NCBI RefSeq assembly: GCF_021991835.1
Contig: NZ_JAHDAU010000003.1
Coordinates: 1-64,000 of the forward strand
Direction of reading: 5' to 3'
Origin: Polaribacter sargassicola
Lineage (GTDB): Bacteria; Bacteroidota; Bacteroidia; Flavobacteriales; Flavobacteriaceae
Length of the DNA stretch: 64,000 bases
Positions 35,487 to 44,795 of the stretch are shown in pieces; position 1 is the stretch's first letter, and each line of letters opens with the position of its first letter. The notes under the pieces were generated by a model, which did no database searches, was not told the origin of the DNA, and saw only the letters and a list, made by a program, of their open reading frames with translations. A program made the translations under genes and the position numbers.

Positions 35487-37103
35487 CTAATTCTGATCTG
35501 CTTCCGTTAAATTTGGATTTGCATCAATCTCTGCTTGTGGAATTTTCCAAATCCAATCATTATTCAAAGATGGTTTTTCTTGGATAAATCCATCTCTGTA
35601 TAAATTATCATCAGCTCCAGAGTTTGTTAAATCAATTCCTTGGTCCCAACGAATGTAATCATGGAAACTAAATCCTTCTCCATATAACTCAACAGCTCTT
35701 TGCCATTTAATATGATCCATTAATGCATCTTGAGAAGCATATACAGATGCATCATAATCTGTATCTCTTGCACTTCCAAATTCTTGAAGAACCGCTTGTG
35801 CTCCTGTAATATCAGACAACATCGCTTTAGCTTCTGCTTCAATTAAATACATTTCTGATGCTCTCATATAAATAACATCATCTGGATCAATAGAACCTGG
35901 ATTCTTTTGTAAAAACTTAACAGCCATATATGGGTGTGTGTTGTGCCCTGTTGTCATTCCGTATTTAGTAATAATAGCTTCCCATGCATTCCAAAAATCA
36001 TCTGAATTATCATAATTAGGATCTGTAGTATAACTACCACCTTGTCCGTTAGAAGCAGACGAGTTTGTGTTTGGTGCCAAAGGTAAAGCCATATTAATTC
36101 TAAAATCTGTAGACGGAATAGCATCGTACACTTCTTTATCTATTAATTTTGGATTTGTTCTGTTTTGACTACCATTAAACGTAGGACTAATAAAGTAAAA
36201 GTAAGATTGGTAATAATTAGTTTCTGCATCAATTACAGTTCCTCCCCAAATAACCTCAGATAGCTCTACTGTATTAAAACCAGATAACCAATCAGACTCA
36301 TCTAATAAAGGAAAACCTGAACGAGCTAATACAGCAGCGTCAGCAGCATCTTGCCATTTACCTTGAGTTAAATCTATTCTCGCTTTTAAACCATAAGCTG
36401 CATTTATAGATAAATGAGATTTATTATCTGGACTAGAAGCACCATCAAAAAAGCTGATAGAGTTTTCTATATCTGCATTAATTTGGTCGTAAATTACTTG
36501 TACTGTAGATCTAGGCTCACTCGTATAAGGAGCTCCAGCTTCTAATAATAATGGTACACCAGCATCTGAAGATGGATTTCCAATTAAATACCCTTTAGCA
36601 AAAGTTGATACTAATTGATGATATGCCCAAGCTCTATACGCATATGCTTGTCCTAATATATTTCTTACATCCGCATCTGCAGTTGCATAACCATTAACTT
36701 CTACTAAATTAATTAAATTATTAGATGTAGCTATAATATGGTAACGCATGTACCAAAAGTTGTTTACTGTTGTAAAATTTGCATTTGTATGTGTTAACCA
36801 TCTTAACTCACTTGTCATCCAACCATTTCCTGGTGATGAATGAATATTAGTTCCTGCCATTGCATCTAAAGCTGGTATGTAAAAACTTTGTCCACTTCTA
36901 GCAGAAGTACCTCCTGGCAATGGGTTTTGAGCATACATAACTCTATGCAATCCATTTAATACCAAAAACATATTGTTTACACTTGCAAAAGCATCTGCTT
37001 CTGCAATAGCATCTGTAGGTGTTGTTTCTAAGAAATCTTCTGAACAACTAGAAACAAGTACTACTAGTAATCCTATAATTAATAGGTTAATTTTTCGTAA
37101 CAT
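35487..37103 (-). CDS. SusD/RagB family nutrient-binding lipoprotein
   Basis: A 538-residue surface lipoprotein (lipobox SSC, Cys about 20) that caps a SusC-type TonB transporter and captures its ligand. It begins CSEDFLETTPTDAI, the typical RagB start, shows NILGQAYAYRAWAYHQLV (TPR helices), and ends with WQRAVELYGEGFSFHDYIRW and an IPQAEIDANPNL tail. It follows susC-like by 29 bases. No glycoside hydrolase, sulfatase, peptidase or regulator accompanies the pair, so the ligand cannot be inferred. Confidence 0.95.
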   Translation of the reverse strand: MLRKINLLIIGLLVVLVSSCSEDFLETTPTDAIAEADAFASVNNMFLVLNGLHRVMYAQNPLPGGTSARSGQSFYIPALDAMAGTNIHSSPGNGWMTSELRWLTHTNANFTTVNNFWYMRYHIIATSNNLINLVEVNGYATADADVRNILGQAYAYRAWAYHQLVSTFAKGYLIGNPSSDAGVPLLLEAGAPYTSEPRSTVQVIYDQINADIENSISFFDGASSPDNKSHLSINAAYGLKARIDLTQGKWQDAADAAVLARSGFPLLDESDWLSGFNTVELSEVIWGGTVIDAETNYYQSYFYFISPTFNGSQNRTNPKLIDKEVYDAIPSTDFRINMALPLAPNTNSSASNGQGGSYTTDPNYDNSDDFWNAWEAIITKYGMTTGHNTHPYMAVKFLQKNPGSIDPDDVIYMRASEMYLIEAEAKAMLSDITGAQAVLQEFGSARDTDYDASVYASQDALMDHIKWQRAVELYGEGFSFHDYIRWDQGIDLTNSGADDNLYRDGFIQEKPSLNNDWIWKIPQAEIDANPNLTEADQN

Positions 37104-37132
37104 AATATAATATTTTTAAATTTTAATAATTT

Positions 37133-40100
37133 TTAGAATGATAAGTTTAACCCTAAAGTAACTACTCTAGAAGGATTATAATCATTTCCTCCTTGTGTAC
37201 CTGCTAAATTATATTGAGGATTGATTCCTTTTCTAGCTGCTTTAATAAACATATTTTCACCAGTAAGGAAAAGGCGTAAATTACTTACCCCTAATTTTTC
37301 TGATATATTTTTATCAAAATTATAACCTAAGTTTACATTTCTTAGAGCAATATAAGAAGCATCTGTTAAGAAACGAGTAGAACTTGCTACTGTTTGGTTT
37401 GGATCTTCATTTTCTAAACGTGGTACATCTGTAATATCTCCTGGAGCTCTCCATGCTTTTTCTGCATCTACATGTATAGATCTACCAAAAGTTCCTGGGT
37501 GCATTAAGCTAGAGTAACCTCCATCTAATATTTTACCACCAATACCGTAAGTAAATAATAAATCTAAAGAAAACTGCTTATACCTAAAAGTATTAGAAAT
37601 AGATCCTATTAAATCTGGAATACTACTATCTCCTGTATAAGCTTCTCCTGCTTCTTGATAGTCATTAGTTGTAGCTTGTGTTCCATCATCATTTAAAACA
37701 GCAACTCTACCACCATCATCTGTATCTTCGAACATGTAATATAAAGCATCTCCATTATTTACATCTACACCTGCATAATGATAAATATAAAAATCATATC
37801 TAGATCTACCAACTTGCCAACGTTTTGTCCCATTATCAGCAGGACTATCAATTTTTGTGATTTCGTTCTTAAGCGTTGATGCCTGTAAAGTTATATCCCA
37901 ATTAAAGTCTTTAGTATTTATTAAATGACCTGTTAAACCTAACTCTACACCTTCATTATAAATATCTCCTAAATTTGTTGGAGCTTCGTTTAAACCTTCT
38001 GAGATTGGAATTGGTAAATTGTATAATAAATCTTGAGAAGTTTTTCTATAATACTCTAAAGAACCTTCTATTACATTATTAAATAAACCAAATTCTAAAG
38101 CAACATCCCAACTAATTTGGTTTTCCCATTCTAACTCGGTATTTCCTGTACTACTCCAAATAATACCTGGTGTTCCTGCATTTGGAATAATTTCATATAA
38201 TGCTTGAGAAGCGTAATAAGAACCTATTCTTTCATTACCAATTTCTCCGTAAGAAGCTCTTAACTTTAACCTATCTATGAAAGAAATATTTTTAATAAAC
38301 TCTTCTTGATCTAATCTCCAAGACCCACCTAAAGAATAGAATGTACCCCAACGTGCATCTTTAGAAAACCTAGAAGTACCATCTCTTCTTACAGAGGCAC
38401 TTAAATAATATTTACTATCAAAATTATAGTTTAATCTTGCAAAATAACCTTCAATTCTATGATCTGTACTATTACCATTTACGTTATCTCCTGATGCAAA
38501 ATTATCAAACTCATAAATACCTGTTACTGTTTGAGTATTTGCAATACCACCCAATATAGAATAATTTCTATCAAAACTTTCGTGACCTAAGGTAACGTCA
38601 AAATTATGAACATCTTTAATTGAATTATTATAAGTTAAGATTTGATTAAAGTTTTGGATAACTCTTCTATATCTATCCTCACTATATCTACCTGATGGAG
38701 CACCATCTCCAACTGTTTCATTTTCATAACCTTTAATAATACCATCTTGAATATCTGTACCGTAAGTTATTTTAGCTTTTAAACCTTCTATAATACCTAC
38801 CTCTACATAGTTTTTAAAACCATATAGGTTTTGTTTATTCTCATCTTCATTTAAAATTAACTCAGCAATACCATGTCTACCTGGGTTATATGGCCTTGTT
38901 TGAATATTACTATCTGGATAACCTTCCCCTAAATCATATAATGGATTACCTGATGCGTCATTAATAATATTACCATTAATATCTACTTGATAAACAGGGT
39001 AAATTGGCCCTAAATTATTTGCCCAACTAAAAGGATTTCCTGTAGAACTACTACCACCACTTGTTGGCCCATGAGATTTTGTAGTTGTTATATAAACACT
39101 ACCACCAATAGTAAGGTTTTTTATTGGAGTAAAATCTGCATTTAATCTATTTGTAATTCTTTCATAATCACTTTCAATAACATACCCTTCTTCTTTTAAA
39201 TATGATGCTGAGTAAAATACAGAATGATTTTCTCCACCAGAAGCAACATTTACAGAATGGCTTTCTCTACTACCAGTTCTTTCTAAATAATCTAACCAGT
39301 TTAAAGATTGATAAACAAGTTCTGCATCTGGATTTAATTTACCATCTGTACCAACAATTTGATCATTTGGCACATTAAAAGGGTTGTAACCTAACTGATT
39401 AAAAATTGTTGCAGAAGCTTCTGCCGCTGCGTCTGCTCCACTAATAGTGTTTTTGTAAGCTTCCCACATTAATTCATAATAAGAACCAGCGCCTACCATT
39501 TCATAATTATCTATAGCTCTTGTAATTACACTATATTGTGTTGATGCACTTACAGTAGTTTTATTCTTTTTACCTTTTTTAGTAGTAATAATTACTACAC
39601 CATTTGCTGCTCTAGAACCATATAATGAGGTTGAAGCCGCATCTTTTAAAACAGTCATAGATGCAATATCATCTTGGTTAATAGAACTTAAAGAACCATC
39701 AAACTGAATACCATCTACAATATACAATGGAGTTGTACTTCCGTTAAGAGTACCAACACCACGAATTACGATACCTGGAGAAGAACCTGGCTGACCTGAT
39801 GATGCTAAAAATTGCACACCTGTTGCTTTACCTTCAATAGCTGCAATAGGTGATGTTACAGCTCTTAAATCTAAGTCTTTTTGACCTATAACATTTGCTG
39901 CACCTGTAAAAGCTTCTTTTGTTGTTGTACCGTAAGCTACAACAATAACTTCATCTAACACACTATTATCTTCAGATAAAACTACATTTATAACATTAGA
40001 GTTTCCTATAGTTTTTTCAACCATTTGATAACCTAAGTATCTAAATACTAAAATATCTCCTTTAGTTGCTGAGATATTATAATTACCATCAAAATTAGTT

Positions 40101-40261
40101 TCTACACCTACATTTGTACCTTTAATTAACACACTTACCCCTGGTAACGGACCTGCATTATCGGATACAGAACCTGATACCGAAATTTTTTGAGCATTAA
40201 CTAGAGTTATTGCTCCTAAGAGAAAAAATAACAATAGTATTTTTTTGTGAATTTGTTTCAT
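37133..40261 (-). CDS. SusC/RagA family TonB-dependent transporter
   Basis: A 1042-residue outer-membrane transporter. It has a signal peptide (to about residue 23), a carboxypeptidase-regulatory-like domain (ISVSGSVSDNAGPLPGVSVL), a TonB-box region near DEVIVVAYGTTTKE, a plug with GKATGVQF and IRGVGTLNGSTTPLYIVDG, and a 22-stranded barrel ending in VVTLGLNLSF with terminal Phe. It is paired with the SusD gene downstream. A long A-rich tract lies upstream of its start. Confidence 0.95.
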   Translation of the reverse strand: MKQIHKKILLLFFLLGAITLVNAQKISVSGSVSDNAGPLPGVSVLIKGTNVGVETNFDGNYNISATKGDILVFRYLGYQMVEKTIGNSNVINVVLSEDNSVLDEVIVVAYGTTTKEAFTGAANVIGQKDLDLRAVTSPIAAIEGKATGVQFLASSGQPGSSPGIVIRGVGTLNGSTTPLYIVDGIQFDGSLSSINQDDIASMTVLKDAASTSLYGSRAANGVVIITTKKGKKNKTTVSASTQYSVITRAIDNYEMVGAGSYYELMWEAYKNTISGADAAAEASATIFNQLGYNPFNVPNDQIVGTDGKLNPDAELVYQSLNWLDYLERTGSRESHSVNVASGGENHSVFYSASYLKEEGYVIESDYERITNRLNADFTPIKNLTIGGSVYITTTKSHGPTSGGSSSTGNPFSWANNLGPIYPVYQVDINGNIINDASGNPLYDLGEGYPDSNIQTRPYNPGRHGIAELILNEDENKQNLYGFKNYVEVGIIEGLKAKITYGTDIQDGIIKGYENETVGDGAPSGRYSEDRYRRVIQNFNQILTYNNSIKDVHNFDVTLGHESFDRNYSILGGIANTQTVTGIYEFDNFASGDNVNGNSTDHRIEGYFARLNYNFDSKYYLSASVRRDGTSRFSKDARWGTFYSLGGSWRLDQEEFIKNISFIDRLKLRASYGEIGNERIGSYYASQALYEIIPNAGTPGIIWSSTGNTELEWENQISWDVALEFGLFNNVIEGSLEYYRKTSQDLLYNLPIPISEGLNEAPTNLGDIYNEGVELGLTGHLINTKDFNWDITLQASTLKNEITKIDSPADNGTKRWQVGRSRYDFYIYHYAGVDVNNGDALYYMFEDTDDGGRVAVLNDDGTQATTNDYQEAGEAYTGDSSIPDLIGSISNTFRYKQFSLDLLFTYGIGGKILDGGYSSLMHPGTFGRSIHVDAEKAWRAPGDITDVPRLENEDPNQTVASSTRFLTDASYIALRNVNLGYNFDKNISEKLGVSNLRLFLTGENMFIKAARKGINPQYNLAGTQGGNDYNPSRVVTLGLNLSF

Positions 40262-42129: not shown

Positions 42130-42464
42130 AATTATTAGATTTAAGTTATTTTATAATACAGAGAAACATTTACTAAGATAAAGTAAAAATTATAAATCTT
42201 TTATTTTTAAATGTTAAACACTCACAAAAGACAAATCAAAAATTATGCCAATCAAAAACAATACTACTAAGTTTTAAAAATTGAGTGTTAAAAGTAATTT
42301 AAAAGGTTAAAATCATCATATTTTAAAAAACTTTAATTACTTTTAATGTACTCTTTATGGTAATAATAAAAAGTTTTATTGATTAAAAGTTTAAATAAAT
42401 TTTGCTTTTGTGCATCTTTTTTAAAAAACTTAAGTCTATTATATGAACTTAAAAATTAAATATC
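42130..42464. other. Intergenic spacer before the metallothionein-like gene
   Basis: 335 bases between the divergent DUF4136 and Cys-rich peptide genes. I found no ORF or convincing -7 box; a weak inverted repeat (CACTCA/TGAGTG) with a loop of about 60 bases is the only structure seen. The promoter of the peptide must lie here but could not be placed. Confidence 0.5.
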
Positions 42465-42566
42465 ATGAAAAATAATAATTGTACTTGCAACTGTAATGGT
42501 TGTAAAGCCGGAAATTGCAAAAACTGTACATGCGAAAATTGTACTTGTACTTCTTGTAATTGTTAA
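42465..42566 (+). CDS. Metallothionein-like Cys-rich peptide (33 aa)
   Basis: A 33-codon ORF beginning MKNNNCTCNCNGCKAGNCKN. Eleven of its 33 residues are Cys (positions 6, 8, 10, 13, 18, 21, 23, 26, 28, 31 and 33), arranged as CxC, CxxC and similar pairs. It has no aromatic or hydrophobic residues after Met. This is the composition of a metallothionein binding Zn, Cu or Cd in thiolate clusters. It does not match the bacterial SmtA/BmtA type as I know it, which is longer and contains His. It lies 64 bases before a sigma factor gene on the same strand and may share its transcript. Confidence 0.78.
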   Translation: MKNNNCTCNCNGCKAGNCKNCTCENCTCTSCNC

Positions 42567-42630
42567 TCTAACTATTTACTTAAGCATCGCTAAAAAAAAT
42601 ATTGGCGATAATTAAAATTCATCAAAATAT

Positions 42631-43173
42631 ATGACTACAAACCAAGTTTGGACAACATATTCTGAAGATTTAAAATACTTTATCATCAGCAAAGTAAAAG
42701 ATATTACTATTGCTGATGATATTTTACAGGACACTTTTATTAAAATTCATACAAAATTAAGCTCAGTAAAAGATGACACAAAACTAAAATCTTGGTGTTT
42801 TGCAATTGCTAGAAATTCAATTTTTGATTATTGGAAATCAACAAATAAAACTTTTGAAATTTCAAATCTAGAAACTGATACAGAAATTGTAAATAATGAG
42901 CATACAGAAAAAGATTGTTTAAGAGGCATCATAAAAAAATTGCCTAAAAAATACAGAGATCCTTTATTTTTATCAGACATAAAAGGATTAAAACAACAAG
43001 AAGTTGCAGATCAATTACACCAAAGCTTACCTACAACAAAATCGCAAATTCAACGTGCAAGAAAATTAATAGCAAAAGGCTTTGTAGACTGTTGTGGCTT
43101 TGTAATTAATAAAAAAGGAAATTTAGTTGGAGAAATAAAAGACAAAGGAGATTGTAAAATTTGTAGCTCTTAA
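42631..43173 (+). CDS. Sigma-70 family RNA polymerase sigma factor, SigZ-like
   Basis: A 180-residue ECF-type sigma factor. Region 2 spans about 10-70 (DDILQDTFIKIHTKL, SWCFAIARNSIFDYW) and region 4 about 105-150 (KYRDPLFLSDIKGLKQQEVA, TTKSQIQRARKLI). The C-terminal tail is special: DCCGFVINKKGNLVGEI and CKICSS, resembling the Cys-containing tail of SigZ-type sigma factors. No anti-sigma factor follows; the next gene encodes a PAS protein. A metal- or thiol-sensing role for the tail is an inference. Confidence 0.88.
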   Translation: MTTNQVWTTYSEDLKYFIISKVKDITIADDILQDTFIKIHTKLSSVKDDTKLKSWCFAIARNSIFDYWKSTNKTFEISNLETDTEIVNNEHTEKDCLRGIIKKLPKKYRDPLFLSDIKGLKQQEVADQLHQSLPTTKSQIQRARKLIAKGFVDCCGFVINKKGNLVGEIKDKGDCKICSS

Positions 43174-43199
43174 TTTTTAAAAAATATTCCTTTATAACT

Positions 43200-43207
43200 T
43201 AACTTCG
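43200..43207 (+). promoter_or_regulatory. Candidate -7 box TAACTTCG for the PAS gene
   Basis: One mismatch to TAnnTTTG, 19 bases before the ATG. The same octamer is found at 17679. The PAS gene may thus be transcribed on its own. Confidence 0.35.
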
Positions 43208-43225
43208 TAAATTAAAATTCTTTTC

Positions 43226-43789
43226 ATGAAAAATAATTTAGCTAATATGATTTGTTTAGATTTATTTCTAGCAAATAAAAACAAACAAGATTACGCCTTA
43301 TTAAAAGAACTGCTAACCCCTTCTAAATCTATAACAACACCTATTATTAGTTTCGATTTTTATATTGATTTTTTTACTGAAGAAATAAAAAATGCGACTA
43401 GAAAAAAAGATATTTATGCAGTAAAAGATTTTGCCACAAAATTTAAATGGACAAATAATTTTAATGAAATTTTTAAGAATCAAACTTTTGATGCTATTGT
43501 ACTTACAAATAAAAAGCAAGAAATTATTTGGGTAAATGATGGTTTTAAAAAGATGACCGGTTACTCTAAAAATTATGCAATTAATAAAACTCCTTCTTTT
43601 TTACAAGGTGAAAATACTTGCGAAAAAACAAAAACTTTAATCAGAAAAAAAATAAATACAAATAAGCCTTTTAAAGAAATCATTTTAAATTACAAAAAAG
43701 ACAAAACACCATATAAATGCGAAATAAACTTTTACCCTTTAACCTATAAAAACACAACACATTTTATGGCTTTAGAAAGGGCTTTGTAA
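43226..43789 (+). CDS. Single-domain LOV-like PAS protein without the photoactive Cys
   Basis: A 187-residue protein. The N-terminal 80 residues are helical and unrecognised; residues from about 88 form a PAS domain (FDAIVLTNKKQEIIWVNDGF, MTGYS, NKPFKEIILNYKKD). The segment TPSFLQGENT aligns with the LOV signature NCRFLQG but has Thr-Pro in place of Asn-Cys, so a flavin-Cys photocycle is not expected. No output domain is attached. It follows the SigZ-like gene by 52 bases and could be its sensor partner. Confidence 0.8.
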   Translation: MKNNLANMICLDLFLANKNKQDYALLKELLTPSKSITTPIISFDFYIDFFTEEIKNATRKKDIYAVKDFATKFKWTNNFNEIFKNQTFDAIVLTNKKQEIIWVNDGFKKMTGYSKNYAINKTPSFLQGENTCEKTKTLIRKKINTNKPFKEIILNYKKDKTPYKCEINFYPLTYKNTTHFMALERAL

Positions 43790-43904: not shown

Positions 43905-44795
43905 ATGCAAAAACTTAAAAAAGAAGATATTAATCAAGAAGTATTTGATTTATATGATGATTATGCACACAATAAAATTGACAGAAAAGAATTTATAAAA
44001 AAGTTATCTTTATATGCTGTTGGTGCAATTACTTTACCAGCTTTATTAAGTTTTATTTTACCTAATTATGAAGATGCTATTGTTGTAAAACTTGATGACC
44101 CAAAACTTAAAAACGAAACAATTTCATACGATTCTCCCAAAGGAGGAAAAATTATAAAAGGACAACTTTCTATCTTAAAAGATACTACAGAAAAGCTACC
44201 TGGTGTTATTGTTGTTCATGAAAATAGAGGATTAAACCCTTACATTAAAGATGTTGGTAGAAGAACAGCTCTAGAAGGTTTTATAACATTGGCTCCAGAT
44301 GCTTTATCTCCTTTAGGTGGTTACCCTGGTAATGATGATAAAGGTAGAGAAATGCAAAGAAAAAGAGATCAAAAAGAAATGTTAGAAGATTTTATTGCTG
44401 GTTATAATTACTTAAAATCTCATAAAGATTGTAATGGTAAAGTAGCTGTTGTTGGTTTTTGCTTTGGCGGATGGATCTCTAACATGATGGCTGTAAAAAT
44501 ACCCGATTTAGCTGCTGCAGTACCTTACTACGGAAGACAACCTAAAAAAGAAGACGCTGCAAAAATTAAAGCTCCGTTATTATTACAATACGCTGGTTTA
44601 GATAAAAGAGTAAATGCTGGTTGGCCAGATTTTGAAACCATTTTAAAAGCTAATAATATAGAACACGAAGTTTATTTTTATCCAGAAGTAAACCATGGTT
44701 TCCATAACAATACAACACCAAGATATGATGAAGAATCTGCGGATTTATCTTGGGAAAGAACCATAGCATTTTTTAATAAACATTTAAAAGGATAA
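43905..44795 (+). CDS. Dienelactone hydrolase family protein
   Basis: An alpha/beta-hydrolase of about 296 residues. ATG 43905 ([11 protein letters not shown]) is preferred to a TTG 15 codons upstream, because a candidate promoter (TAATTTCG, 43865-43872) overlaps the longer reading. A hydrophobic segment near residues 34-54 ([16 protein letters not shown]) suggests a signal anchor preceded by a basic stretch, as in other exported DLH proteins. The nucleophile is C186 in [11 protein letters not shown]; Asp in [12 protein letters not shown] and His in EVNHGFHN complete the triad. Substrate unknown. Confidence 0.88.

Follow-up and report, generated by a model that had tools for sequence, protein, structure and literature searches.

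The DNA analysed here, hereafter the window, is a stretch of 64,000 nucleotides from Polaribacter sargassicola with a GC content of 28.5%. It carries a short Cys-rich ORF with the conceptual translation MKNNNCTCNCNGCKAGNCKNCTCENCTCTSCNC, ending at a stop codon, which lies 64 nt upstream of a gene for a SigZ-like ECF sigma factor on the same strand. A putative ECF-type promoter precedes the ORF, and genes for a PAS-domain protein and a dienelactone-hydrolase-family protein follow the sigma factor gene (Table 1).

Table 1. Features of the peptide-sigZ locus, in window coordinates
Feature	Position	Strand	Remarks
Predicted ECF-type promoter, TGCATCTTTTTTAAAAAACTTAAGTCTATTA	42411..42441	+	-35-like TGCATCTTTTTT, -10-like GTCTATTA
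Cys-rich peptide gene	42465..42566 (stop included)	+	33 residues, 11 Cys, metallothionein-like
SigZ-like ECF sigma factor gene	42631..43173	+	180 aa; Pfam regions 2 and 4; C96, C154, C155, C175 and C178 conserved
PAS-domain protein	43226..43789	+	Downstream of sigZ; Pfam; 3/64 loci
Dienelactone-hydrolase-family protein	43905..44795	+	YghX-like, below the model's cut-off; 12/64 loci

The earlier note on this DNA had described the ORF as encoding a 33-residue peptide with 11 cysteines, and this is confirmed by the translation and by a Cys content of 33%, far above that of the runner-up (15%, or 4 Cys) among the window's 161 ORFs that start with ATG and span 25-100 codons. The composition is that expected of a metallothionein, namely a small protein with a high content of Cys in CxC and CxxC patterns, and the spacing of the Cys is invariant here. 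The genome holds a single copy of the peptide, the only other match having an E value of 2.4 and 52% identity over 21 residues.

To collect related loci, the sigma protein rather than the peptide was used as query, yielding 78 loci from named genomes. An ORF with the same Cys pattern is found just upstream of sigZ in 63 of the 63 named flavobacterial loci, from genera that include Polaribacter, Tenacibaculum, Lutibacter, Lacinutrix, Winogradskyella, Bizionia, Gaetbulibacter and others, and was not found at the 15 distant sigma loci (three from Paenibacillus and 12 others, mostly from Clostridia and candidate phyla). The first Met and all 11 Cys are invariant in an alignment of 43 of the 64 peptides. 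Codons were compared in 63 sequences that span the whole 28-residue core, the truncated L054 peptide with 9 Cys being excluded. All 693 Cys positions keep this residue, TGT (494 times) and TGC (199 times) interchanging freely. Over the core pN/pS is 0.24, with a value of 0 at Cys and of 0.50 at the other positions, pS being close to saturation. The constancy of Cys, the exchange of its codons and the low pN/pS indicate, therefore, that the peptide evolves as a protein. The earlier note had staked its reading on conserved homologues in the Flavobacteriaceae with preserved Cys spacing and synonymous-dominated substitution, all of which are borne out. On this comparative evidence the ORF is almost certainly a real gene, its translation remaining an inference. 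That so short an ORF, unmatched by the profile libraries, arose by chance and is no gene can be given virtually no weight, being refuted by its conservation in every flavobacterial locus recovered, by the invariant Cys and by a promoter of its own.

The association with sigZ was also assessed in 397 sampled genomes from the window's family, the Flavobacteriaceae; 108 of them yield a sigma match at E <= 1e-20. The peptide is present in all 52 genomes with a close SigZ (at least 137 bits), on the same contig and strand and 6-252 nt away. Weaker sigma matches (below 127 bits) occur in 56 genomes, and among these only G494 has a peptide match, which is weak and unlinked. The limit of 137 bits was chosen after a gap in the scores, from 137.5 to 126.7, had been seen, and absence of SigZ denotes no match at E <= 1e-20 among the at most eight candidates scored per genome. 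In a sample of the phylum, peptide matches were found in five of 395 genomes, all five from the window's family. Both members of the pair can be seen to degenerate in one genome (G465:C3:142045-142798, L160), where the peptide frame is disrupted and sigZ contains two in-frame stops, with the promoter intact; judged from the sequence, this is joint decay of the pair.

Besides the peptide, no gene is present in more than 26 of the 64 sigZ loci. The PAS, hydrolase and methyltransferase neighbours were considered as core parts of the unit and rejected, the first two on the counts in Table 1 and the third with 9 of 64 loci. Such counts are lower bounds, because the stretches covered at most about 3 kb on each side, and the search for an anti-sigma factor was limited to the window's own neighbours.

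Upstream of the peptide, the sigZ-linked loci share the consensus TGCATCTTTTT-N12-GTCTA(T/C)TA. With gaps of 15-19 nt allowed, the best match to TGCATC/GTCTA has a gap of exactly 17 nt in 64 of 64 sigZ-linked loci, with 11 of the 11 bases matched in 55 loci, 10 in eight (a count of 10 is also that of the sigZ-bearing L161), and nine in one, and the promoter starts 50-59 nt before the ATG used in 62 of the 64. The promoter is present in none of 15 homologues without sigZ, where only 7-9 of the 11 bases are matched and at scattered positions. The exact longer pattern occurs in 29 of the 397 family genomes, with 28 sites just before a peptide match, and the backward control occurs once. The one remaining exact site (G562:C3:319138-319168, L288) belongs to a genome that lacks a peptide match and whose sigma match is merely weak. 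The simplest inference from this co-occurrence is that the promoter is read by the SigZ-like factor, which would thereby activate its own operon.

Not all copies of the peptide are linked to the sigma factor. In the 397-genome sample, 18 genomes, G494 included, have a peptide match without a close SigZ. Fifteen of these matches retain a Cys pattern that is looser but recognisable, including the G600 copy, which contains an in-frame TGA; the matches in G389 and G494 are weak and possibly not homologues. The assemblies behind 11 of the 15 patterned copies measure 1.3-2.1 Mb and are in many cases incomplete. Completeness is 66-90% in several of the genomes without sigZ, and a direct reading of the stretches examined revealed no sigZ near the peptide. 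In two genomes of one genus (G421 and G597), the peptide gene lies behind a CDF gene and a metallo-beta-lactamase-fold gene of the same strand, the CDF protein there having 46% identity to that of the window's genome, and in G606 the metallo-beta-lactamase-fold gene precedes the peptide without that CDF. For most sigZ-free copies no metal gene is evident among the scanned neighbours, which include RuvC, HemN-like, carbonic anhydrase, SulP, MutS and prolyl peptidase genes, among others. In the three sigZ-free genomes with a metallo-beta-lactamase-fold gene (loci L142, L148 and L144), this gene lies directly 5' of the peptide, with a CDF exporter before it in two. In another copy without a close SigZ (G378:C40:8408-8506, L154), some Cys are lost and the upstream box has drifted, as if the peptide were decaying there.

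The persistence of the peptide without an adjacent SigZ argues against an exclusive role as a partner of SigZ, and also against a leader peptide. The position of a short Cys-rich ORF immediately 5' of a regulator gene is what would be expected of a leader whose Cys codons attenuate sigZ according to the supply of cysteine. Such a mechanism is nevertheless very improbable, as in addition to the homologues that have no sigZ downstream, no terminator-like hairpin is found in 42130-43300, the gap between the genes is 2 nt in five loci and the genes overlap in L058, leaving no room for a terminator, and the non-Cys residues are constrained too. A known RNA in 42130-43300 was likewise rejected, the three Rfam matches (E 0.49-0.71) being far under their gathering scores and deemed chance.

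The reach of the promoter beyond the peptide is best seen in relatives. Of 97 genomes of the same genus, 68 contain promoter sites with at most one mismatch, 102 in all; the backward control gives 13. When the first downstream ORF is classed by short text rules, 67 sites precede the peptide, 13 a DUF3703 gene, 12 a CDF gene and six other ORFs, with four having none; the six are two TonB-receptor-like genes, a P-type ATPase, a CzcA/CusA pump, a flavin-monooxygenase-like gene and an apparently spurious ORF. One protein each of the CDF, ATPase, pump, TonB-receptor-like, monooxygenase-like and DUF3703 kinds was scanned against NCBIfam. The ATPase passes the cut-off of the Cd family (501.9 vs 313.5) and fails that of the Cu family (378.4 vs 397), the pump passes the CusA/CzcA cut-off, and the CDF protein passes the general CDF cut-off, its best equivalog being the zinc exporter family ZitB, under ZitB's own cut-off. 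The TonB-receptor-like and monooxygenase-like examples reach no NCBIfam cut-off. The sites of the TonB-receptor-like genes, which fall in two genomes, and that of the CzcA/CusA pump, from a third (L183, L200 and L221), hint, on sequence grounds, at outer-membrane parts of the regulon.

DUF3703 was assigned through Pfam on three relatives from other loci, and no paper on it was found in the open-licence literature. A DUF3703 gene often lies directly before the peptide (L171, L174, L182, L192, L194, L196, L216, L231 and L232). The copy in the window's own genome (G000:C184:384608-384931, L292) was rejected as a regulon member, there being no TGCATC box upstream; the ORF that precedes it looks like a Fur-type regulator.

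Within the window's own genome, the shorter pattern with one mismatch allowed gives six sites, of which that of the peptide is exact, one precedes the CDF gene (G000:C217:296771-297661, 16 nt downstream of the site) and four lie inside other genes. A relaxed search with at most three mismatches was uninformative (71 sites vs 51 for the backward control). The CDF site has one mismatch to the short pattern and three to the longer one, which is near noise, and it therefore rests on its position and on orthologous sites in relatives. From these comparisons, the peptide appears to share its promoter with exporters of Zn- or Cd-like metals in relatives. The link to metal, which the earlier note had drawn from composition alone, is supported by this common promoter and by the CDF gene that precedes the peptide in two genomes without sigZ. 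A link to metal in regulation or gene neighbourhood, as expected of a metallothionein, is thus present by sequence only, metal binding and expression being inferred.

The regulon also bears on a reading in which the main task of the peptide is to buffer redox stress, or reactive species of sulphur or nitrogen, or to partner SigZ directly, with metal being secondary. The constant pairing with SigZ fits such a role, as do the flavin-monooxygenase-like and the two TonB-receptor-like genes that carry the promoter; however, at the sites that do not belong to the peptide, genes for metal export are far more numerous than any redox gene and, given the peptide genes without an adjacent SigZ described above, we lend this reading little credence.

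As to what the peptide is, the earlier note had suggested a new or little-described small metal-binding peptide, and its novelty is supported, as no real relative was found among Pfam, NCBIfam and PDB sequences. The window peptide has no match in Pfam, the profile PF02069 of the SmtA and Pseudomonas metallothionein kind included. One of 43 members has a chance Pfam match to another family (E 0.21), NCBIfam contains no family matching the peptide, and sequences of solved structures in the PDB yield no relative at E <= 10. A metallothionein-like family, as judged from its sequence, is thereby absent from the libraries searched. In the open-licence literature, as far as titles and the beginnings of abstracts go, there is no paper describing the peptide or a SigZ-metallothionein pair, and none joining SigZ and zinc in flavobacteria; on metallothionein in Polaribacter there is only an unrelated review.

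Like SmtA and the Pseudomonas metallothioneins, the peptide is very short and has its Cys in CxC and CxxC pairs. Unlike them, it has 33 residues with 11 Cys, no Pfam match and an ECF sigma factor as its partner. The SmtA kind has Cys9His clusters, and a His ligand is not found here, the peptide being without a conserved His (His occurs in three of the 63 core sequences, at one position). SmtA and Pseudomonas metallothioneins are reported to handle Zn and Cd, SmtA being paired with the repressor SmtB and the Pseudomonas proteins lacking linked metal regulators (PMC7387436). MymT of Mycobacterium tuberculosis resembles the present case in being a metallothionein within a metal regulon alongside a regulator gene, the metal there being copper and the regulator RicR, a CsoR homologue (PMC10141476). 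According to these sources, few bacterial metallothioneins have been functionally studied, and their regulators, where any is known, are repressors of the SmtB or CsoR type (PMC10141476, PMC7387436). The peptide would represent a further metallothionein family, spread across many genera of one marine bacterial family and placed under a metal-type ECF sigma factor; this sigma factor, the promoter and the regulon are additions beyond the earlier note.

For the sigma protein, SigZ is the best NCBIfam name, with scores below the curated cut-offs (155.1 vs 168.65 for TIGR02959 and 166.8 vs 212 for NF007215). The equivalog criterion for SigZ is not met, and hence the protein is called SigZ-like. In 33 aligned SigZ-like proteins, including three from Paenibacillus, C96, C154 and C155 are invariant and C175 and C178 are conserved in at least 90%. 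C96 lies at the start of sigma region 4, for which the Pfam match spans residues 95-146, and C154-C155 at the end of the region's last helix, whereas a short tail carries C175 and C178. In the AlphaFold model (mean pLDDT 81.7, pTM 0.46), the protein ends in that last helix, a short hairpin and a lower-confidence tail. The three Paenibacillus homologues, which also keep C96 and C154-C155, come from loci that lack the peptide.

A Cys-bearing C-terminal extension beyond sigma4 is a mark of CorE-like factors, and it is present here. The SigZ-like factor resembles CorE and CorE2 of Myxococcus xanthus in being an ECF sigma factor with Cys in a C-terminal extension and before sigma4, and with metal efflux targets, which are inferred in its own case. 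It differs from CorE in that its tail carries CC and CxxC, and in having only C96, where region 4 begins, instead of a CXC linker motif; moreover, the targets reported for CorE-like factors in the sources cited here include no metallothionein. The Cys of the tail and linker are described as essential in CorE and CorE2 (review PMC8999054; PMC3107203), and CorE2 is said to respond to Cd and Zn (PMC8999054). The motifs of CorE differ from those of the SigZ-like proteins, and direct metal sensing is therefore a proposal only: the SigZ-like factor may, by inference from this comparison, sense metal directly through its conserved Cys.

The identity of the metal is likewise inferred. A peptide with 11 Cys and no conserved His would suit Cu(I) too, and the same kind of peptide might then be a Cu(I) ligand in a SigZ regulon responsive to copper in the manner of CorE. 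The CusA/CzcA pump family also covers copper, and CorE itself is reported to be copper-dependent (PMC3107203). We consider copper unlikely, given that the scanned ATPase fails the Cu cut-off while passing that for Cd, and that 12 sites stand before genes for CDF exporters, for which the top equivalog model, if sub-cut-off, is one for zinc.

The reading we favour, and regard as likely, is that the peptide is a metallothionein-like metal buffer within an autoregulated SigZ metal-stress regulon, with Zn or Cd the probable metal and with expression and metal binding inferred. The peptide is small and presumably cytosolic, and with the sigma factor gene would form a two-gene unit transcribed from the ECF-type promoter, most likely through recognition by the SigZ-like factor itself. 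Were the cytosolic level of a thiophilic divalent metal to rise, Zn and Cd being the likeliest candidates, SigZ would become active, probably through metal bound at its own Cys. SigZ would then transcribe the peptide, whose Cys-thiolate clusters would hold the ions while exporters remove the metal, and by stripping metal from SigZ the peptide would also damp the response.

A bolder version, for which the case is tentative and somewhat short of even, is a self-contained flavobacterial switch in which a one-component ECF sigma factor without an anti-sigma factor would directly sense Zn or Cd via its own Cys, and a new family of 33-residue metallothioneins, encoded alongside it, would both detoxify the metal and switch the sigma factor off by removing it, the regulon consisting of the peptide, CDF, P-type ATPase, CzcA and DUF3703. 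The peptide family and its setting, taken as a whole, predict in directly testable form what the SigZ-like clade does, which exact promoter it reads and which regulon it serves, and they give a first lead for DUF3703, which would gain its first role were the bolder version true.

Two further features of the window may be mentioned. The PAS-domain protein contains an FLQG stretch like that of LOV photoreceptors, with the usual preceding Cys missing. At 35487-40261, sequence features suggest a SusD-like and SusC-like outer-membrane pair, ordinary for Bacteroidota.
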